DNA of 32,168 bases from Kiloniellaceae bacterium (GTDB taxonomy: Bacteria > Pseudomonadota > Alphaproteobacteria > Kiloniellales > J153), in contig JAJFGI010000220.1 of assembly GCA_021776215.1 (NCBI GenBank), positions 1 to 32,168 of the forward strand. The letters run 5' to 3'. Below the pieces are notes generated by a model. That model saw nothing but the letters and a program-made list of their open reading frames with translations, was not told the DNA's origin and made no database searches. Both the position numbers and the translations under genes were made by a program. This document shows, in pieces, positions 2,873-15,312 of the stretch. The first letter of the stretch is position 1. The number at the start of each line of letters is the position of its first letter.

Positions 2873-3184
2873 GTGCCGACAACAAAGAAATACACCGGAT
2901 CACGAACCATGGACGGCATCGAAGTCCTGGTCGATGGCCGGCGGCTTGATGAGCGCTACGACTTGAAGAAATTCACCAGTGGAGGCTTCGAGTGGACCTA
3001 CGAGGGGGCGGCACCGCAGCAGCTGGCGCTGGCACTGCTCGCCGATCATTTGGGTGACGATCAAGCGGCCCTCAAGCTTTGCCAACCCTTGATGCGCGCG
3101 GTCGTGGCAAACCTCGAAAACGATTGGCAACTGACCGGGCAGGACATCGACGACGCACTGAAGCGGCTTGAGACAAATAGGTGA
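2873..3184 (+). CDS. DUF6166-like small protein
   Basis: About 103 residues. The pattern KKYTGSR near the start, then V.GR.LD.R.DL..F...GFEWTYEGAAPQQLALALLADHLGDD..AL.L.Q and a C-terminal W.LT..DID.AL, matches my memory of the uncharacterised DUF6166 family. The gene has no signal peptide or membrane segment, so the protein is probably cytoplasmic. The start is uncertain. GTG at 2873 keeps the conserved KKYTGSR block; TTG at 2861 and ATG at 2909 are alternatives, and ATG 2909 would cut the block off. It lies 85 bases upstream of dctP, downstream of operator site 2. Its role in this locus is unknown. Confidence 0.65.
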   Translation: MPTTKKYTGSRTMDGIEVLVDGRRLDERYDLKKFTSGGFEWTYEGAAPQQLALALLADHLGDDQAALKLCQPLMRAVVANLENDWQLTGQDIDDALKRLETNR

Positions 3185-3229
3185 CGGACCCGGCAGTTCG
3201 ACAACCGTGCGCCGGCTCAACAACAAAGA

Positions 3230-3250
3230 GGCAGGTATTAGTTGCCTGCC
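3230..3250 (+). other. short hairpin upstream of dctP
   Basis: GGCAGG and CCTGCC form a 6-bp stem around a 9-base loop, just before the dctP ribosome binding site (AGGGAGGG). There is no T-run. It could be a weak attenuator or a 5' stabilising element; it may also be chance. Confidence 0.3.
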
Positions 3251-3269
3251 GAAACAGGGAGGGAAAGAA

Positions 3270-4325
3270 ATGAACGTCATGCGAAATATCAAGATGCTTG
3301 CGGTGGCGGCCGCGGTGGGCCTTGGCGCCCTGTTTTCCGCCGACGCGGGCGCCGAAACCGTCAAGTGGAAGATGGCCACCAGTTGGAGCGGCGGGCCGCT
3401 GATGGAGATCGGTGCCCAGGCCTTCGCCGACAAGGTCAAGCTGTTCACCGAGGGTCGCGTGGAAATACAGGTTTTTCCGGGCGGGCAGTTGGGCTCCGCC
3501 TTGAAGGTTGCGGAAACCGTGCGCAACGGTGTCGCCGAGGTCGGGCACACCTGGATGGGCTATGATTGGGGTCAAGACAAGGCCACGGTCGTGTTTGGCG
3601 GCTTTGCCGGTAGCATGGACTCCGAGCACATGTTGCACTGGCTCTACGAGGCCGGTGGCGCGGAGATGTGGGCGCAGTTTCGGGACGAGAAGTTCGGCGT
3701 CGTCTCCATGCCGCTTTTCATCCGTACGGCGGAAGTCTTCCTGCATTCGCGCAAGCCGGTCCGGACGCTGGCCGACCTGCAAGGCTTGAAGCTGCGCACG
3801 GCCGGTGCCTGGCTGGAAATGGCCAAGGATCTCGGGGCCGCACCGGTGACCATGCCGGGCGGCGAGGTCTATACCTCGTTGGAGCGTGGCGCCATCGATG
3901 CGACCGAATGGGGCACCTTGTGGGAGAATATCTCCCCCGGTTTTCATAAGATCGCCAAGTACGTGATCATCCCCGGCGTCCACCAGCCTGTGGCCCCCTT
4001 CGAGGTCATGTTCAACAAGGAGGCCTGGAGCAAGATATCCGATCTCGACCGGACCTTGATCCAACAGGCCGCCAAACTGGTCACCTTCGAATCGTGGACC
4101 CGGATCGGCCAGGAAGACGCCAAGGCCTTGGATTTCTACCGCAAGGCGGGCAACGAAATCATTGAGCTGGATGTCGCTGTCCAAAAACAAACCAAGAAGA
4201 TCGCCAACGAATGGGCCGAAACTCAGGCCAAGGAGAATCCCTGGTTCGAGAAGGCCTGGCGGTCGCAAGTCGAATTCGAGTCTCTCTGGAAGGATGCCGC
4301 GCGGTATCGAAACGTGCAGGGCTGA
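3270..4325 (+). CDS. dctP: TRAP transporter solute-binding protein, DctP/TakP type
   Basis: A 351-residue periplasmic binding protein. A Sec signal peptide (residues 1 to about 28, hydrophobic core AVAAAVGLGALFSA, cleavage near AGA-ET) is followed by a typical DctP fold. The ligand-domain features are KLRTAG (R176, the position of the carboxylate-binding Arg of this family) and ATEW (W214), followed by GFHKIAKY..IPGVHQP. This stretch resembles the 2-oxoacid-binding TakP group more than the C4-dicarboxylate group. A monocarboxylate or 2-oxoacid ligand is therefore plausible, but this is inference. The start has a strong AGGGAGGG site. The small and large permease genes follow, after a stable hairpin at 4342-4367. 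Confidence 0.93.
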   Translation: MNVMRNIKMLAVAAAVGLGALFSADAGAETVKWKMATSWSGGPLMEIGAQAFADKVKLFTEGRVEIQVFPGGQLGSALKVAETVRNGVAEVGHTWMGYDWGQDKATVVFGGFAGSMDSEHMLHWLYEAGGAEMWAQFRDEKFGVVSMPLFIRTAEVFLHSRKPVRTLADLQGLKLRTAGAWLEMAKDLGAAPVTMPGGEVYTSLERGAIDATEWGTLWENISPGFHKIAKYVIIPGVHQPVAPFEVMFNKEAWSKISDLDRTLIQQAAKLVTFESWTRIGQEDAKALDFYRKAGNEIIELDVAVQKQTKKIANEWAETQAKENPWFEKAWRSQVEFESLWKDAARYRNVQG

Positions 4326-4341
4326 AGGTCATACGCACAGT

Positions 4342-4367
4342 GATGGGGGCGCTTCGGCGCCCTCATC
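4342..4367 (+). other. stable hairpin between dctP and dctQ (UUCG loop)
   Basis: Eleven base pairs (4342-4352 with 4357-4367, one G-T wobble) are closed by a TTCG tetraloop in C(UUCG)G context. No T-run follows, so a full intrinsic terminator is unlikely. More likely it marks and stabilises the 3' end of a dctP-only transcript, or gives partial termination before the permease genes. Confidence 0.75.
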
Positions 4368-4403
4368 GCCCACGCCATTTGCGGTAGTTGTAAGAGCTCC
4401 GCC

Positions 4404-4922
4404 ATGCATGTTCTGGTCCGCCTGATCGAACGTCTGTCCGGTGGATTCGGACTGCTTGGCGCGATCATAGTCGCCCCCTTGATTCTGGCGACCGTCTATG
4501 AGGTGTTTTCCCGCTACCTGTTCAACGCCCCGACGATCTGGGCCTACGAGATCGCCTATATGGCGATGGGCACCAACTTCCTGCTCGGGGCGGCCGTCAC
4601 CTTGCGTGACCGCGGCCATATCCGTATCGACCTGCTCTATGCCCGTTGGTCCCCCCGAACCCAGGCGCTGATCGATATTGTCGGCTATACCTGCCTCTTC
4701 CTGCCGGTCGCCTGGTGGGTCAGCTGGGGTCTCTGGAAGTACGCGTACTACGCCTTTCTGTCCGGTGAAACCTCGGGCGATTCGGCCTGGAATCCGATCA
4801 TCTGGCCATTCCGTCTGGTCTTTTTCGCGGGTTTTGTATCGCTGGCGTTGCAGGCCGCGGCGGAGTTGATCAAGGCGGCCTATATTCTGGCTGGCCGGAC
4901 GCCGCCGGGGGCATCGCGATGA
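4404..4922 (+). CDS. dctQ: TRAP transporter small permease, DctQ family
   Basis: A 172-residue integral membrane protein with four predicted helices (about residues 15-38, 50-70, 92-113 and 132-158). The family signature runs YEVFSRYLFN.PT.WAYEIAYMAMG. and continues into LRDRGHIRIDLLY. It forms the Na+-driven TRAP complex with the large permease and receives substrate from DctP. It overlaps dctM by four bases (ATGA), indicating translational coupling. Confidence 0.93.
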   Translation: MHVLVRLIERLSGGFGLLGAIIVAPLILATVYEVFSRYLFNAPTIWAYEIAYMAMGTNFLLGAAVTLRDRGHIRIDLLYARWSPRTQALIDIVGYTCLFLPVAWWVSWGLWKYAYYAFLSGETSGDSAWNPIIWPFRLVFFAGFVSLALQAAAELIKAAYILAGRTPPGASR

Positions 4923-6241
4923 GCGATTATCTCGCGCTCCTGATGTTTCCGGCGCTGCTGTTCGCCCTGTTCATGGGATTTCCGGTGGCGTTCTCCATGA
5001 TGGGTGTGGCGCTGATCTTCGGTCTGATGACTTTCGGCGATTCGGTGATCTTTCAATTCGTCCAAAAGGTCAACGATGTGGCGTCGAATTTCGTCCTCGC
5101 GGCGGTGCCGTTATTCGTATTCATGGGCGCCATGCTCGAGCGGTCCGGAATCGCGGAAGAGCTTTTTGAGGCCGTGCATCTTTGGACCCGCCGGCTGCCG
5201 GGCGGTCTGGCGGTCGGCACGATCATCATGTGCGTCATTTTCGCCGCCTCGACCGGCGTCATCGGGGCGACGGAAACCGTGGTCGGCCTGCTCGCGATCC
5301 CGGTCATGATGCGGTACGCCTACGACAAGGGCCTGATTTCCGGAACGATTTGCGCCGGCGGATCGCTGGGCACCATTATCCCGCCGTCCGTGGTCGTCGT
5401 CATTCTGGGCCCGGTTGCCGACGTCTCGGTTGGCGACCTGTTCGTCGGCATGATCTTCCCCGGATTGCTGATGGCTGGCTTATACCTGGTCTATATCCTG
5501 GTCCGGTGCACCCTTGATCCGCGCGCCGGGCCACGCCTGCCGCGCAGCGATAGCGATCCGCCGTTGGGTGCCAAGCTGCGTACCACGGTGGTTGCCCTGG
5601 TTCCGCCGGTGCTGATGATTTTCGCAGTGCTCGGTTCGATCATGTTCGGCTGGGCGGCGCCGACCGAAGCTGCCGGTCTGGGGGCATTCGGCGCGATCCT
5701 GCTGACCGTGGCATACCGCTCCTTTTCGCTCGGCGTTCTGTGGGAAGCCTTGATGAAGACCCTGAAGGTGACGTGCATGATCATGCTGATCCTGCTCGGC
5801 GGCAACATGTTCGCGGGTGTCTTCGTCGGTTCCGGCGGTGTCACCCTGGCCAACGATCTGGTCCGTTCCGCGGACCTCAGCGGTTGGGCCACCCTCGTAT
5901 TGTTCCTGTCGGTCAGCTTCATCGCCGGGTTCTTCCTCGATTGGATTTCTGTCCTGCTGATCTTCATTCCGGTGTTCATCCCGCTGGTGGTTAGCTTCGG
6001 CTTCGATCCGGTGTGGTTTTGCATCCTGTTCCTGATCGTGATCCAGACCAGCTATCTGACCCCGCCCATGGCGCCGGCCATATTCTACCTGCGCGGCATT
6101 AGCCCGCCGGAGATTACGCTGACGCACATGTTCCGAGGGGTGATCCCCTTCATCGTGCTGCAAATCACGACCCTGGCGATTGTTGCCGCCTATCCGCCGC
6201 TGGTGCTGTGGCTGCCGACCAAGCTTCTAGGCTTCCAATAG
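4919..6241 (+). CDS. dctM: TRAP transporter large permease, DctM family
   Basis: A 440-residue membrane protein of 11-12 predicted helices, full length for DctM. Recognisable segments are the N-terminal GFPVAFSMMGVAL, the motif AASTGVIGATETVVGLLAIPVMM, GSLGTIIPPS, and the C-terminal repeat FFLDWISVLLIFIPVFIPLV followed by QTSYLTPPMAPAIFYLRG. It is the substrate-translocating subunit. It is the last gene of this TRAP set; the dioxygenase gene downstream has its own operator candidate at 6280-6297. Confidence 0.94.
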   Translation: MSDYLALLMFPALLFALFMGFPVAFSMMGVALIFGLMTFGDSVIFQFVQKVNDVASNFVLAAVPLFVFMGAMLERSGIAEELFEAVHLWTRRLPGGLAVGTIIMCVIFAASTGVIGATETVVGLLAIPVMMRYAYDKGLISGTICAGGSLGTIIPPSVVVVILGPVADVSVGDLFVGMIFPGLLMAGLYLVYILVRCTLDPRAGPRLPRSDSDPPLGAKLRTTVVALVPPVLMIFAVLGSIMFGWAAPTEAAGLGAFGAILLTVAYRSFSLGVLWEALMKTLKVTCMIMLILLGGNMFAGVFVGSGGVTLANDLVRSADLSGWATLVLFLSVSFIAGFFLDWISVLLIFIPVFIPLVVSFGFDPVWFCILFLIVIQTSYLTPPMAPAIFYLRGISPPEITLTHMFRGVIPFIVLQITTLAIVAAYPPLVLWLPTKLLGFQ

Positions 6242-6279
6242 AGGCGCAAGGTAGCTTGACTACTCGATCTTTCTGATGT

Positions 6280-6297
6280 ATCTGTAATATATCAGAT
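6280..6297. promoter_or_regulatory. palindromic operator candidate, site 3
   Basis: ATCTGTAATATATCAGAT has matching arms ATCTG/CAGAT and contains the TAATATATCAG half seen in site 1. It lies in the spacer after dctM and about 80 bases before the preferred start of the PhyH-family gene. A second CTGAT lies just upstream (6273-6277). Confidence 0.55.
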
Positions 6298-6376
6298 GAG
6301 GTTGCCACCTCTGGAATGGCCGGTTCCGATGCGGTTTGAAATCGACCGTATCGAACAAGTGCGGGAGTTTTACGCC

Positions 6377-7273
6377 ATGACACCCGAGGATGTGCTGTCG
6401 ATCGAACCGAAGGTCCTGACCCGCAAGCAGCGCGACTCCTATTTCGCCGATGGCTACCTGCTGGTCGAGCAGGCAATTCCGGAGGAGTGGATTGAGAGGC
6501 TGCGCGCGGTCACCATTGAGATGGTCGAGGAAAGCCGCGCCATCACAAAGTCTGATACCATTTGGGACCTAGAGGCCGGCCATAGCGCCGCGTCGCCGCG
6601 CCTGCGCCGCTTGTCGAGCCCGAACGACAAGCACCCGACCTACTGGGAGTTTGCTTCGCAGTCGGTCATCCCGGATATCATCGCCGATCTTGTGGGACCG
6701 AATGTAAAGTTCCACCATTCGAAGCTAAATTTCAAATGGGCGCAGGGTGGCGAAGAGGTCAAGTGGCACCAGGACATCGGCTTCTGGCCGCACACGAATT
6801 ACAGCCCCTGCACGGTCGGCACCTACATCTACGACTGTGGGATGGACCAGGGCCCGGTCGGCGTGATCAAGGGCAGTCACGACGGGCCGCTCTATGATCA
6901 GTATGCCAACGGCACCTGGACCGGGTGCCTGTCCGAGGCCGATGCCGCGGCGATCGATCCCGCCAAGATCGTTTATTTGGATGGCCCGGCCGGTTCGATC
7001 ACGATCCACAACTGCCGCACCATACACGGGTCGAAGCCGAACACCTCGGACCTGGGCCGGCCGCTGTTACTCAACGTCTATGCCGCGGCCGACGCTTTTC
7101 CGTATACGCACAACCCGATCTATTCGAAATATGATCAGCAGATCGTGCGCGGTCAGCCGGTTCACTGGGCGCATCACGATCCGCGGCCCTGTTTGGTGCC
7201 GCCGGATTGGTCGGGAGGTTATTCATCGATCTTCGCCTTGCAACAGGCCGAAGGCAAGACGGCCGCGGAATGA
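6377..7273 (+). CDS. phytanoyl-CoA dioxygenase (PhyH) family protein
   Basis: A 298-residue protein of the Fe(II)/2-oxoglutarate dioxygenase superfamily. Visible features are the N-terminal LTRKQRDSYFADGYLLVE, the metal pair H131 and D133 (KWHQDIGFWPH), a distal His in CRTIHGSK (H217), and an Arg ten residues on (GRPLLLNVY, R228) suited to 2-oxoglutarate. It presumably hydroxylates a small carboxylic or lipid-like substrate. It lacks the ectoine hydroxylase EctD signature, so it is not EctD despite the nearby ectoine island. The ATG at 6377 has GGGAG upstream. An in-frame ATG at 6296 overlaps the operator and one at 6329 is possible. It is followed by the membrane hydroxylase gene, probably in one operon. 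Confidence 0.87.
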   Translation: MTPEDVLSIEPKVLTRKQRDSYFADGYLLVEQAIPEEWIERLRAVTIEMVEESRAITKSDTIWDLEAGHSAASPRLRRLSSPNDKHPTYWEFASQSVIPDIIADLVGPNVKFHHSKLNFKWAQGGEEVKWHQDIGFWPHTNYSPCTVGTYIYDCGMDQGPVGVIKGSHDGPLYDQYANGTWTGCLSEADAAAIDPAKIVYLDGPAGSITIHNCRTIHGSKPNTSDLGRPLLLNVYAAADAFPYTHNPIYSKYDQQIVRGQPVHWAHHDPRPCLVPPDWSGGYSSIFALQQAEGKTAAE

Positions 7274-8718: not shown

Positions 8719-9282
8719 TTATTGATATCCCGGTGACTTGAACCGCTGCTGTTTTCGTTCTCGGCGTCGCACCGGCTGGTGTGAGTTTTCGGCCCGATTG
8801 TTCGCTCGTAATCCCTGATCGTGAACCGCAGACAGCCGTTCTTCGCGAATGGCGACAGAGTACGATTTGAGTTTGTCGGTGGTGATGCGCTTCGGCGCGA
8901 AACCCTGTCTCTTCAGCAACTTACGGAGCAATCGCCTCGCCGACTTGGCGCAGCGTCGTGGCTGGACCAGGAAGTCCAGCACTTCCCCTTCGTCATCGAC
9001 GGCCCGCCACAGCCAATGATTACGGCCACGGATTTTCATGACCATCTCGTCGAGGTGCCAGTCTGAGCTCGGCCGCGAACGGCTCCGACGGAGATAGCCA
9101 GCGATCCGTTGACCGAATTTCAGAAACCAGCGGCGAACCGTTTCGTTCGACACATCGACACCGCGTTCGGTTAGCAGATCCTCGACATCGCGGAAGGACA
9201 GTGTGAACCGGGCGTAGAGCCAGACCGCGTTCTGGATGATCTCGGACGGAAAGCGATGCCGCTTGAAAGATATCGGGGTCAT
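8719..9282 (-). pseudogene. IS6-family transposase, C-terminally truncated
   Basis: The 187 residues match IS6/IS26-type DDE transposases, which are usually about 235-240 residues. It starts MTPISFKRHRFPSEII, the normal N-terminus, followed by a helix-turn-helix region (RDVEDLL.ERGVDVSNETVRRW). The catalytic residues are D78 (WHLDE), D136 (ITTDK) and E165 (NRAENSHQP). Homology ends at RFKSPG, and two more codons lead to a stop, so about 50 C-terminal residues are lost. All three catalytic residues remain, but the missing end and missing right terminus suggest it cannot move by itself. Confidence 0.85.
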
Positions 9283-9323
9283 ACGGAGACCGTACCGGTC
9301 CCTCCCCGCGCCGGCCATCTACT

Positions 9324-10825: not shown

Positions 10826-12310
10826 TCAGCCGTTATCCAGGCAGAGATACTTGATCTCGGTAAAGGCCTCCATCCCCTGGCGCGCACCCTCGCGGCCCAG
10901 GCCGGATTGCTTGACTCCGCCGAAGGGGACCGGCGCGCCGGTGATCTTGACTCGATTGACCGCCACCATACCGTATTCCAGCGCCCGCCCGAAACGGCTG
11001 ATCCGACGAGTGTCGGCGGTGTAGAGATAGGCGACGAGGCCGTACTCGGTCGCGTTCGCCGCGGCAAGCACAGCGTCCTCGTCGTCGAACGGTGCAAGGG
11101 CGGCGACCGGACCGAAGGTTTCCTCATGCCAGATGCGCGCGTCCGTGGGCACGTCGGCGAGCACTGTTGGCTCGAAGAACAAGGACCCCGCCGTATGGTG
11201 CTTGCCACCGTTCACCAGGCGCGCACCGCGGGCCAGGGCATCGGCAACGTGATCTGCGCACTTGGCCACTGCCCGCTCGTGCATCAGCGGGCCGATCTCG
11301 ACGCTTTCGTTCAGGCCAGTGCCGACGTTCAGCGCACGGGCGCGCTCGGCGAAGGCGTCGACGAAACGCTTGTAAATATCCCGGTGAACGAAGAACCGAT
11401 TGGCCGCTAGGCAGTCCTGCCCGGAGGTCGCGAACTTGGCCGCAACCGCGCCGTCGATGGCGCGCTCGAAGTCGGCGTCCGGGAAGACGATGAATGGCGC
11501 GTGGCCGCCCAGTTCCATGATCAGGCGCTTGACGCTGGGCGCGCATTGCGCGGCGATCAAGCGGCCAACCTGGGTCGAGCCGGTGAAGCTCACCACCCGC
11601 ACGGCCGGGCTGGCGCAGAACGCGCCGACAATCTCAGGGGCATCGCCGGTGACGACGTTAAAGACGCCGGCCGGCATGCCCGCCCGCTCGGCCAATTCGG
11701 CCAGCGCCAGGGCGGAGTAGGGCGTGTACATCGATGGGTGGACGACCACGGTGCAGCCGGCGGCCAGCGCTGCCGCGCCCTTGCGGGTGATCATGGCCGA
11801 GGGGAAATTCCAGGGTGTGACCAGCGCGGCGACCCCGGCCGGTTCCCGCCGCACCATCGTATCCGCGTCGGGGAAGGGACTGGTCACCGATTCGACATTC
11901 AGGCGCTTGGCCTCCTCCGCGTACCAGGCGATGAACGAAGCGGCATAGTCGATCTCGCCGCGCGACTCGCCGATCGGCTTGCCCTGTTCCAAGGTCATCA
12001 AGACCGCCAGGTCCTCGCGGTTGGCCAGGATCTCGTTGTGCCAGGCATGCAGGATCGCCGCACGCTCCTGCGGCAGACGCTTACGCCAACCGCCGAACGC
12101 ATTTTCGGCGGCGGCCACGGCCTCGACCGCCTCGGTGGCGCCGAGGGCGGCGACCGTGCCCAGGCATTCGCCGGTGGCCGGGTTGTGGACCTCCCGCACG
12201 GTTCCATCGGTGGCGGCGCGCCAGCGGCCATCGATGTAGGCGTTTTCGCGGAACAGTCGCGGGTCATTCAGGCGCGACAGATCGCTCCAGATCACCATCT
12301 CGGCCAGCAT
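10826..12310 (-). CDS. ssd: succinate-semialdehyde dehydrogenase-type aldehyde dehydrogenase (DoeC/Ssd)
   Basis: A 494-residue aldehyde dehydrogenase of the GabD/SSADH clade. Features are TPWNFP (N168), the catalytic Glu in MELGGHAP (E266), the nucleophile in SGQDCLAANR (C300), and the C-terminal EETFGP and PFGGVKQSGLGREG. In ectoine degradation such enzymes oxidise aspartate semialdehyde to aspartate. Where most SSADHs have the cofactor-binding Lys (consensus V.KP...TP.SAL), this protein has His191 (VVVHPSMYTPYSAL). That may alter NAD/NADP handling or be normal for this clade; I cannot check. The ATG at 12310 has GAGAG upstream. Confidence 0.9.
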   Translation of the reverse strand: MLAEMVIWSDLSRLNDPRLFRENAYIDGRWRAATDGTVREVHNPATGECLGTVAALGATEAVEAVAAAENAFGGWRKRLPQERAAILHAWHNEILANREDLAVLMTLEQGKPIGESRGEIDYAASFIAWYAEEAKRLNVESVTSPFPDADTMVRREPAGVAALVTPWNFPSAMITRKGAAALAAGCTVVVHPSMYTPYSALALAELAERAGMPAGVFNVVTGDAPEIVGAFCASPAVRVVSFTGSTQVGRLIAAQCAPSVKRLIMELGGHAPFIVFPDADFERAIDGAVAAKFATSGQDCLAANRFFVHRDIYKRFVDAFAERARALNVGTGLNESVEIGPLMHERAVAKCADHVADALARGARLVNGGKHHTAGSLFFEPTVLADVPTDARIWHEETFGPVAALAPFDDEDAVLAAANATEYGLVAYLYTADTRRISRFGRALEYGMVAVNRVKITGAPVPFGGVKQSGLGREGARQGMEAFTEIKYLCLDNG

Positions 12311-12416: not shown

Positions 12417-12995
12417 TCAGCGTCCGCTGGCAGATGATTTGCCGCGATGGCGGTCCGGGGTGTCGCCGAGGGCGGCGATCGCGAGGCGCACCGGTGTCTG
12501 GGGCAGGTTTTTGATCGCGCGGGTGACGACATAGGTGAAATAACGGTCGATCCCGATTTCGGCGACCAGCAGGCTGTCGATCAGGCGCTGGTACGCATCC
12601 ATGTCGGGCGTCACGATCTTGAGCAAGTAATCGATGCCACCGCCGGTGGCTTGGCATTCGACGATTTCATCGATCCGCTTCACCTGACGCTCGAACAGCT
12701 CGAAGTCCTGGAAGCGGTGCTGCTTGAGCGTGACCTCGACCAGGACCGTGGTCAGCGGGGCTAGTTTTTCGAGGGCGATGTCGGCCCGATAGCCGCGAAT
12801 GTAGCCCGCCTGTTCCAGGCGCCGCAGGCGCTCCCAGCACGGTGTCGGCGAGAGGCCGACCCGCTCCGCCAGCGCGGTTTTGGTCAGGCGTCCCTCGTCC
12901 TGCAGCACGGTGAGGATCTTGAGATCGATGGCATCCGGTCTGGCGTCGCGCATACCGGCACGATGCGGGCTGCATTTATCGTTGTCAATTGTCAT
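12417..12995 (-). CDS. asnC: Lrp/AsnC-family regulator of ectoine catabolism
   Basis: About 192 residues. The N-terminal AsnC helix-turn-helix (DAIDLKILTVLQDEGRLTKTALAERVGLSPTPCWERLRRLEQAGYI) is followed by a RAM ligand-binding domain (residues about 80-170) and a basic tail. Genes of this kind (asnC/doeX) sit in many ectoine-degradation clusters. The ATG at 12995 has GAGGA upstream. An alternative ATG at 12953 gives a protein nearer the usual length (about 155-178) and would place the inverted repeat at 12989-13023 fully in the spacer. It is divergent from enuR by only 21 bases and heads the asnC-ssd-atf group. Confidence 0.88.
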   Translation of the reverse strand: MTIDNDKCSPHRAGMRDARPDAIDLKILTVLQDEGRLTKTALAERVGLSPTPCWERLRRLEQAGYIRGYRADIALEKLAPLTTVLVEVTLKQHRFQDFELFERQVKRIDEIVECQATGGGIDYLLKIVTPDMDAYQRLIDSLLVAEIGIDRYFTYVVTRAIKNLPQTPVRLAIAALGDTPDRHRGKSSASGR

Positions 12996-13023
12996 GATTT
13001 TCCTCATGGTGGAATCATGACAA
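12989..13023. promoter_or_regulatory. inverted repeat in the asnC/enuR divergent region
   Basis: TTGTCATGAT (12989-12998) and its exact reverse complement ATCATGACAA (13014-13023) are separated by 15 bases. A similar pair with the same 15-base spacer lies at 14466-14500 before ehuA. A further TTGTCA at 12982 precedes it. It is a candidate operator for EnuR or AsnC. As annotated, both start codons fall inside the half-sites. Confidence 0.6.
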
Positions 13024-14405
13024 GCTGGCCACCCAGCCGAGATACTTTGAAACGCCCGGTCTATCGTTCGCTGGTCAACCTGGTCGCGCGCGCGATCGAG
13101 ACCGGCGAGCTCACGCCCGGCGCCCGACTGCCGACCCATCGGGATCTGGCGCACCGGCTTGATATCAGCATCCAGACCGTCAGCCGAGCCTACGAGGCGC
13201 TGATCCGCCGCGGTCTGATCGTCGGCGAGGTCGGCCGCGGCACGTTCGTGCGCCCCGACCGGGCCGATCCGGCGCCGCCGTTCATCACCGAGCGGGGGCC
13301 TGGCACCCTGATTGACCTATCGATCCTGAAACCGGTCGGTGACGCGGTTCATGTCGAGCGTATGAAGACGGCGCTTGCCGCCCTGCTCGATGACTTGCCG
13401 CTCAGCGCGCTGTTTTCCTTCCGGCCGAGCCTGGCGCATCGGCGATACCGCGAAGTCGCGGCCGATTGGCTCCGGCTCTGCGGTCTACAGGCCTCGCCGA
13501 ACGCCATTCTCATCACCAATGGCGCCAGTCCCGGCCTGACTATCGCGCTGATGTCCGCGGCCCGGCCGGGCGACGTCGTGGCGACCGAGGCGATCGGCCA
13601 TCACATGCTGCGGCCACAGGCCGCTTACCTTGGCCTGCGCCTCAAGGGATTGCCGATCGACGACGACGGGATCCTGCCCGAAGCGCTCGATCAGGCGTGC
13701 GCCAGCGAGGCGATCAAGGCCCTGTTCCTGGTCCCCTCGGCGGCCAATCCGACGGTTGCCATGGTCAGCCTCGCCCGGCGCGAGGCGATCGTCGAGATTG
13801 CCCGCCGGCACAACATCTACATCATCGAGAATGATGCCTGGGGGCCGCTGGTCGAGGGTCGCCCGCCGCCCATAGCCAGCCTGGCGCCGGAGCGCACCTT
13901 CTATATCACCAGTTTCACCAAGTGCGGCCTGCCGGGCCTGCGCATCGGCTACCTGGTGGCGCCCGACCTGATGATCAGCTCCGTCGCCAGCCGGCACTTG
14001 GTCACGAACTGGAGCGCGACCTCGATCATCGCCGAGATCGCCACCCGCTGGGTCTCCGACGGCACCGCCTGGGAGCTTGTGCAATGGCAACGGGCGGCCC
14101 TTAAGGCGCGCAATGCGTTGGCCACCGAGGTGCTGGGCGACATCGTGCGGCGCCAGCACCCGAACAGCCTGCACATCTGGCTGCCCCTGCCGCCCGCCTG
14201 GCGCGAGGATGAGTTCGTTGCCAACGCCCGCCTGCTCAACGTCGCCATCGCGCCCGGTGCCTCGTTCGTTGCGGAAGCAGATATGGCGACGTCCGCGGTG
14301 CGCATCTGCGTCGGTGCGACCACCGCCGACGAGTTGCGCCAAGGTCTCGAGGTGATCACGCGCATGGTCCGCGCCGAGCCGGAGCCGGCGCTGCTGGCGA
14401 TCTGA
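13017..14405 (+). CDS. enuR: MocR/GabR-type regulator of ectoine utilisation, EnuR
   Basis: A 462-residue MocR-type regulator. The N-terminal GntR winged helix covers residues about 12-80 (RLPTHRDLAHRLDISIQTVSRAYEALIRRGLIVGEVGRGTFV). The C-terminal domain has the aminotransferase fold I, with NGASPG, VPSAANPT, ENDAWGPL and the PLP Lys in SFTKCGLPGLRIGYL (K302). From memory the PLP lysine of Ruegeria pomeroyi EnuR is also Lys302. EnuR is known as a repressor of ectoine import and catabolism genes that senses pathway intermediates (N-acetyl-diaminobutyrate, diaminobutyrate) through PLP. Its position between the asnC group and ehuABCD-eutABCDE fits this. The start is ATG with GGTGGA just upstream. 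Confidence 0.92.
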   Translation: MTSWPPSRDTLKRPVYRSLVNLVARAIETGELTPGARLPTHRDLAHRLDISIQTVSRAYEALIRRGLIVGEVGRGTFVRPDRADPAPPFITERGPGTLIDLSILKPVGDAVHVERMKTALAALLDDLPLSALFSFRPSLAHRRYREVAADWLRLCGLQASPNAILITNGASPGLTIALMSAARPGDVVATEAIGHHMLRPQAAYLGLRLKGLPIDDDGILPEALDQACASEAIKALFLVPSAANPTVAMVSLARREAIVEIARRHNIYIIENDAWGPLVEGRPPPIASLAPERTFYITSFTKCGLPGLRIGYLVAPDLMISSVASRHLVTNWSATSIIAEIATRWVSDGTAWELVQWQRAALKARNALATEVLGDIVRRQHPNSLHIWLPLPPAWREDEFVANARLLNVAIAPGASFVAEADMATSAVRICVGATTADELRQGLEVITRMVRAEPEPALLAI

Positions 14406-14431
14406 AATGCCGGTTGTCGCGTGAACCGAAT

Positions 14432-14441
14432 ATTGTCATGA
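14432..14441. promoter_or_regulatory. additional ATTGTCATGA half-site upstream of ehuA
   Basis: ATTGTCATGA matches nine bases of the left arm of the asnC/enuR inverted repeat. It lies 33 bases (about three helical turns) before the next ATTGTCAT at 14465, as expected for cooperative binding. Confidence 0.45.
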
Positions 14442-14465
14442 GTTAATATTTCGTTTGACGATGAA

Positions 14466-14500
14466 TTGTCATTGTTTCATCGTCAGTGAAATCATAACAA
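14466..14500. promoter_or_regulatory. inverted repeat upstream of ehuA
   Basis: TTGTCATTGT (14466-14475) and ATCATAACAA (14491-14500) match the asnC/enuR half-sites at 8/10 and 9/10 positions with the identical 15-base spacer. The site ends 26 bases before the ehuA ATG and is probably the operator through which EnuR (or AsnC) controls the uptake and catabolic operon. Confidence 0.6.
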
Positions 14501-14526
14501 TATCCGGTTGGGGAGGATGCGCCCGG

Positions 14527-15312
14527 ATGCCGTCACCGATGATCGAAATCGACAAGGTGTGCAAAAGCTTCGGCGAGTTTCAGGTGCTCCGCGACCTGAC
14601 CTTCACCGTCGCGCCGGGGGAAAAGCTGGCCCTGATCGGGCCCAGTGGCTCCGGCAAGACCACGATCCTGCGCATCCTGATGACCTTGGAGACGATCAAC
14701 GCCGGCCACATCAAGGTCGATGGCGATCATCTGTGGCATAAGCCGGCCAACGGCAACCTGGTTCCCGCCGATGAGGCGCATCTGCATCTGATGCGCGCGA
14801 AGATTGGCATGGTCTTCCAGCTCTTCAACCTATTCCCGCACATGACCGTGCTGCGCAACGTCATGTTGGCGCCGATGCTGACCAAGCGCACCGGGCGCAA
14901 GGACGCGCAAAGCCGCGCGATGGACCTTCTCGACATGGTCGGCATGGCCGACAAGGCGACATCGATGCCGGCGCAGCTTTCCGGCTGCCAGAAGCAACGC
15001 GTCGCCATCGCCCGGGCCCTGGCGCTGTCGCCGAAGATCATGCTGTTCGACGAGGTGACCTCCGCGCTCGATCCGGAACTCGTCGAGGAAGTCCTCAACG
15101 TCATGCGCAAGCTCGCCGCCGAGACCGACATGACCATGCTTTTGGTCACCCACGAAATGGGGTTTGCCCATGATTTTGCCGATCGCGTGCTGTTCTTCGA
15201 TGGCGGCAAGATCGTCGAGGAAGGCAAGCCGGACGAGATTTTCAGACATCCGAAACAGGAGCGCACACAGGCATTCCTGAGAAAAATCATCGCGGCCGGG
15301 CACCGTGTCTGA
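14527..15312 (+). CDS. ehuA: ectoine/hydroxyectoine ABC transporter ATPase, EhuA
   Basis: A 261-residue polar-amino-acid-type ABC ATPase. Walker A is GPSGSGKT (38-45), the Q-loop is at Q98, Walker B is IMLFDE (171-176), followed by the D-loop SALD and the H-loop His209 (LLVTHEM). The signature is LSGCQKQR (151-158), where nearly all relatives have LSGGQ: a Gly-to-Cys change in a functional motif. The enzyme energises the EhuC/EhuD channel. The ATG at 14527 has GGGGAGG about 10 bases upstream; the frame is open further upstream, but that would include the operator. It leads the ehuABCD-eutABCDE gene string. Confidence 0.9.

Follow-up and report, generated by a model that had tools for sequence, protein, structure and literature searches.

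Which protein reads the two matched inverted repeats at the control regions of this ectoine cluster? In the window (the whole 32,168-nucleotide stretch of DNA analysed here), the first-pass annotation described one repeat between asnC and enuR and a second before ehuA, with identical 15-bp spacers, and proposed that they form an operator for EnuR or AsnC. We analysed both repeats by pattern and matrix scans, by shuffling and by comparison with orthologous clusters.

Two inverted repeats in an ectoine cluster

The gene layout of the window is of the S. meliloti type as described in PMC5924519 (Table 1). The enuR product (also EhuR or EutR) scores 665 bits against NCBIfam EhuR, above a cutoff of 480 that separates EnuR from near paralogues imperfectly (488–509 bits in L011, L039, L041, L042, L053, L058 and L137). 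It contains a GntR winged helix and an Aminotran_1_2 domain (Pfam), and the lysine at residue 302, within ITSFTKCGLPG, is the expected PLP lysine; Lys302 carries PLP in R. pomeroyi EnuR (PMC8739950). The divergent run consists of asnC, then a succinate-semialdehyde-type dehydrogenase gene (ssd), then a class-III aminotransferase gene, and an IS6-family transposase gene (window 8719–9318) adjoins its end. A second solute-uptake cluster lies near the ectoine genes, at window 3168–7270, where a PhyH-type dioxygenase that weakly matches ectoine hydroxylase (47 bits against a cutoff of 336) comes after a TRAP transporter (DctP, DctQ, DctM). Close relatives from the window's own family (L139–L142, in G392, G391, G390 and G387) encode eutDE at 71–85% identity with no adjacent enuR or asnC and no clear ehuABCD. 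Probably, then, these relatives control ectoine use in another way, or the window cluster was acquired.

Table 1. Genes and predicted regulatory sites of the ectoine cluster, in window coordinates
Feature	Position	Strand	Basis or score
asnC, Lrp/AsnC-family regulator	12417–12953	-	AsnC_trans_reg and HTH domains
IR1, inverted repeat over the enuR start, predicted EnuR operator	12989–13023	.	geometry conserved in orthologues
IR1 left box ATTGTCATGATTTT	12988–13001	+	25.5 bits, best window site
IR1 right box CTTGTCATGATTCC, spans the enuR start codon	13011–13024	-	14.3 bits
enuR (EhuR/EutR), MocR-type PLP-dependent repressor	13017–14405	+	NCBIfam EhuR match
ehuA operator box 1 (conserved) ATTGTCATGAGTTA	14432–14445	+	22.5 bits
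Decayed box 2 TTTGACGATGAATT	14454–14467	+	aligned with orthologue ATTGACATGATTT; <8 bits
Putative -35 element TTGACG, ehuA promoter	14455–14460	+	aligned with conserved TTGACA
IR2, brackets the -10 element, lineage-specific predicted EnuR operator	14466–14500	.	pattern, matrix, shuffles
IR2 left box ATTGTCATTGTTTC	14465–14478	+	12.4 bits
Putative -10 element CATCGT	14478–14483	+	17 bp after -35; conserved in orthologues
IR2 right box ATTGTTATGATTTC	14488–14501	-	17.9 bits
ehuA, first gene of ehuABCD-eutABCDE	14527–15312	+	TIGR03005, 439 bits

The coordinates and sequence first given for both repeats are exact. IR1 reads TTGTCATGAT-N15-ATCATGACAA as originally noted (in full, TTGTCATGATTTTCCTCATGGTGGAATCATGACAA), and its arms are perfect over 11 bp each around N13. 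IR2 reads TTGTCATTGT-N15-ATCATAACAA (in full, TTGTCATTGTTTCATCGTCAGTGAAATCATAACAA); its 10-bp arms pair at seven of ten positions, with several more pairs just inside them. The additional copy ATTGTCATGA reported at 14432 is likewise present, and the next copy follows 33 bp later, at 14465. The two spacers are identical in length only: they agree at 6 of 15 bases, which gives no support to a recent duplication of IR1 into IR2.

Chance was rejected as the origin of the repeats by pattern matches, an assembly scan and shuffles. The repeat pattern had no other match in the 32-kb window at three or fewer mismatches (0.02 expected), and elsewhere in the 3.85-Mb assembly a refined pattern matched nothing. 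When each intergenic region was dinucleotide-shuffled, the observed score for a 35-bp box pair was never reached (0/4,000 for both repeats); with any length from 20 to 59 bp allowed for IR2, 2 of 4,000 shuffles reached it. We also scanned the window with a 14-column box matrix whose training sites all lay downstream of enuR (catabolic promoters) in other genomes, with the window excluded. Its four best sites were those at 12988 (+), 14432 (+), 14488 (-) and 13011 (-), and the box at 14465 (+) ranked seventh; maxima in simulated sequences of window length were 11 to 17 bits. Because no window data entered the matrix, four of the five boxes head an independent scan. On these sequence comparisons, the predicted EnuR recognition unit is ATTG(T/A)CATGATTT.

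The enuR start and the ehuA promoter across orthologues

The comparison covered 56 enuR orthologues from whole genomes, named plasmids (for example, pSymB of S. meliloti 1021) and one MAG contig; a scan of genome contigs yielded two relatives only. In the window, the right arm of IR1 overlays the enuR start codon (ATGACAA, start 13017), a feature absent from the first-pass annotation. An inverted box lies across the enuR ATG in 47 of the 56 orthologues, and in 24 of the 56 there is also a facing box at an outer length of 35–36 bp, a geometry that IR1 fits. Outer lengths of 24 bp (G433) and 47 bp (G443 and G451) occur as well. Of the 50 orthologues with an initial Met-Thr, 49 have ATGACA as the enuR start, although ACA makes up 11% of their other Thr codons (P ~4e-43, with orthologue relatedness ignored). 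This near-invariant second codon means that the DNA itself, and not the protein alone, is constrained. The reading of IR1 as a conserved predicted EnuR operator over the enuR start codon is thus strongly supported by comparative sequence, and the half-site and spacing conservation expected of the repeats holds for this one.

The compact enuR operator of L144 (G433, 11848–11873), TTGTCATGA-N6-TCATGACAA, is 24 bp long, one helical turn shorter than IR1. Directly upstream of IR1, at window 12982–12991, TTGTCAATTG is a poor EnuR box; its counterpart ATTGTCAATTG hardly varies upstream of enuR among rhizobia, and the element may belong to the asnC promoter or to a different site. Several rhizobia (L121, L126, L130, L131, L178 and L180) have a further inverted EnuR-like box of 8–14 bits about 84 bp upstream of enuR, near asnC, which is absent from the window.

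At the catabolic promoter, 35 of the 56 orthologues have two boxes in the same orientation, 22–23 bp apart (ATTGTCATGATATTATTATT...ATTGACATGATTT). The second box contains the -35 hexamer, and in many of them CATCGT follows 17 bp later. Aligned with these promoters, the window copy at 14432 is box 1 and TTTGACGATGAATT is box 2, and CATCGT takes its conserved place, which together define a conserved predicted operator and promoter at 14432–14483 that had gone unremarked. The window ehuA promoter lacks the direct repeat of two good boxes 22–23 bp apart, and in place of a good box 2 it has the boxes at 14465 and 14488, which bracket the -10 element. The left box of IR2 starts 33 bp after box 1 and so is shifted roughly one helical turn downstream of where the second box usually sits.

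No inverted pair of IR2 length was found at ehuA among the 56 orthologues compared, and IR2 is known from one draft assembly only. The alignment therefore marks the 14432 copy as the conserved part and IR2 as the lineage-specific part of the site; judged by sequence, IR2 is a lineage-specific addition to, or replacement of, the predicted ancestral operator. That the two control regions share a single matched inverted repeat is accordingly true of the window genome only, whereas in 35 orthologues ehuA has a direct repeat; what IR2 shares with them is the half-site and not its position or orientation.

Its absence from every orthologue, the weakness of its left box and the conservation of box 1 and the -35/-10 layout would all fit an IR2 that arose as a side effect while the promoter diverged and has little or no function, with IR1 a real EnuR operator and ehuA controlled through box 1 and the decayed box 2 alone. 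We consider this unlikely, given the strong right box, the 35-bp geometry shared with IR1 and the failure of local shuffles to yield such a pair; moreover, a decayed box 2 would leave ehuA with a one-box operator. A function for IR2 nevertheless is the least certain step of the mechanism that we propose below.

The conserved promoter also bears on whether the arms are promoter hexamers (TTGTCA-N18-AATCAT) instead of operators. A consensus scan does give promoter-like matches in both repeats, and IR1 read on the minus strand could act as a promoter for asnC. Read on the plus strand, however, IR1 would place the transcription start within enuR; the promoter that is conserved at ehuA is a different one, TTGAC-N17-CATCGT; and hexamers leave the inverted symmetry and the co-occurrence with enuR unexplained. 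As a whole explanation this reading was rejected, on the consensus scan and the conserved TTGAC-N17-CATCGT, and we regard it as extremely improbable. Because a promoter and an operator may overlap, it is mainly an addition to the operator reading.

Assignment to EnuR or AsnC

The box ATTG(T/A)CATGA, present at the catabolic promoter and at enuR, is conserved together with enuR. In a test set of 61 ectoine loci, box pairs occurred in 5 of 12 enuR-positive loci and in none of the enuR-negative ones (0/15 with asnC and 0/34 without it; 866 kb), where enuR-negative denotes no recognised enuR near the ectoine genes and not genome-wide absence. Several of the enuR-positive loci without a pair have EnuR variants with an altered box. 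Three loci with enuR and no adjacent asnC (L133, L135 and L136) still have the boxes. By these comparisons, the predicted boxes track enuR and not asnC. At the threshold applied, no box pairs were recognised in divergent EnuR clades (L009, L010, L011, L036, L037, L149–L151 and L157), and the link between the boxes and enuR is therefore not universal.

These results bear directly on the proposal that the repeats are operators of AsnC, of the Lrp/AsnC family, which in R. pomeroyi acts as an activator of ectoine catabolism. This protein is a natural candidate: its gene is separated from IR1 by 35 bp, an R. pomeroyi strain mutated in asnC shows no ectoine use, and the H. elongata AsnC homologue binds the control region of its cluster (both PMC5924519). 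Nonetheless, the 15 asnC-positive loci without a recognised enuR nearby have no box pair, the three enuR loci without adjacent asnC keep the boxes, and most orthologues have a box across the enuR start, all of which make an AsnC operator very improbable. The EnuR half of the original proposal thus gains strong comparative support and the AsnC half is disfavoured.

We also compared residue 57 of the EnuR recognition helix with the boxes. Arg accompanies A at box position 10, and Lys accompanies C (64 and 9 boxes, with one exception). Since the tree needs about two independent changes, this covariation is suggestive but not significant, and we dropped it as proof of binding.

A proposed mechanism and its relation to known systems

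We conclude that the repeats are very probably operator boxes, as predicted from sequence, of EnuR, a PLP-dependent repressor of MocR/GabR type whose gene lies between them. Between asnC and enuR, the enuR start is overlaid by two predicted boxes in facing orientation, separated by roughly three helical turns; EnuR bound to IR1 would most likely autorepress enuR and perhaps control the divergent asnC-ssd-aminotransferase genes jointly with it. At ehuA, box 1 of a putative ancestral direct-repeat operator appears to have been retained while box 2 decayed, to be replaced, probably, by the 14465 box one helical turn on and the inverted 14488 box. EnuR on the 14432 box and IR2 would cover the promoter between the -35 element and the transcription start, blocking RNA polymerase. 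α-ADABA, the product of ectoine hydrolase, would then react with PLP on Lys302 and release EnuR from both promoters. In this scheme, we infer the binding of EnuR to these exact boxes, the autoregulation and the function of IR2.

Much of this scheme has precedent. EnuR is a PLP-bound repressor with α-ADABA as inducer and DABA as a weaker one, EnuR/EutR sites are predicted in 69 genomes, and repression with its inducer is known, and EnuR binding to such DNA reported, from R. pomeroyi and S. meliloti (PMC8739950, PMC5320631 and PMC5924519). The regulator, its operator sequence and its target genes are already known, and the window adds a known kind of operator with one lineage-specific rearrangement, at ehuA. 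Beyond this, the analysis assigns the repeats to EnuR over AsnC on comparative evidence and maps both predicted operators in testable form, among them the box that, unusually, overlaps the enuR start codon.

The closest counterpart is the asnC-enuR-ehuABCD-eutABCDE locus on pSymB of S. meliloti, which is EhuR-controlled (Yu et al. 2017, as cited in PMC8739950). This locus (L118) resembles the window in gene order, in inverted boxes over the enuR start (36 bp there), in the place of ehuA box 1 and in the -35/-10 layout. It differs in having a direct repeat 23 bp apart at ehuA and no IR2, and its left box at enuR is degenerate (TTGAGCTGATTT). At the uehABC-usp-eut promoter of R. pomeroyi DSS-3 (PMC8739950), EnuR sites overlap -35 and -10, as the predicted sites do in the window; that system, by contrast, has a TRAP instead of an ABC transporter and short palindromic sites, and its enuR promoter is reported as not ectoine-responsive, unlike our proposal for the window.

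The EutR (EnuR) motif of Suvorova and Rodionov 2016 (PMC5320631), in the form quoted in PMC8739950, has the consensus ATTGT-N6-ACAAT, a notation that differs from that of our boxes. It concerns the same regulator family, the targets ehu, eut and doeC/D/X, and the same strong half ATTGTCAT; the window boxes differ in having no good second half ACAAT at N6 and in being paired at 33–35 bp, inverted or widely spaced. No window box matches both halves: the strong half stands alone in ATTGT-CATGAG-TTAAT and ATTGT-CATGAT-TTTCC. Rhizobial boxes deviate likewise, whereas those of L136 and L160 fit both halves.

According to Table 2 of PMC5320631, the commonest MocR-family operator has three boxes, two direct and one inverted, and the window boxes at 14432 (+), 14465 (+) and 14488 (-) match this architecture; the EutR motifs in the consulted text are palindromic, and a three-box form for EnuR is undescribed there. 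The same text notes that MocR box distances are one or several helix turns, and the spacings seen here (24, 35–36 and 47 bp inverted; 22–23 and 33 bp direct) fit this remark and suggest that either box orientation may be readable if helical phase is kept. We tentatively raise the possibility that the ehuA operator was rebuilt in this lineage from a 22–23-bp direct repeat into a three-box site that copies the enuR geometry, a head-to-tail MocR dimer reading a box either way; such a site would combine a direct box 33 bp away with an inverted box that completes a 35-bp inverted repeat. The inverted and direct pairs within one regulon, spaced in helical phase, offer natural material on how head-to-tail MocR dimers bind both repeat types.
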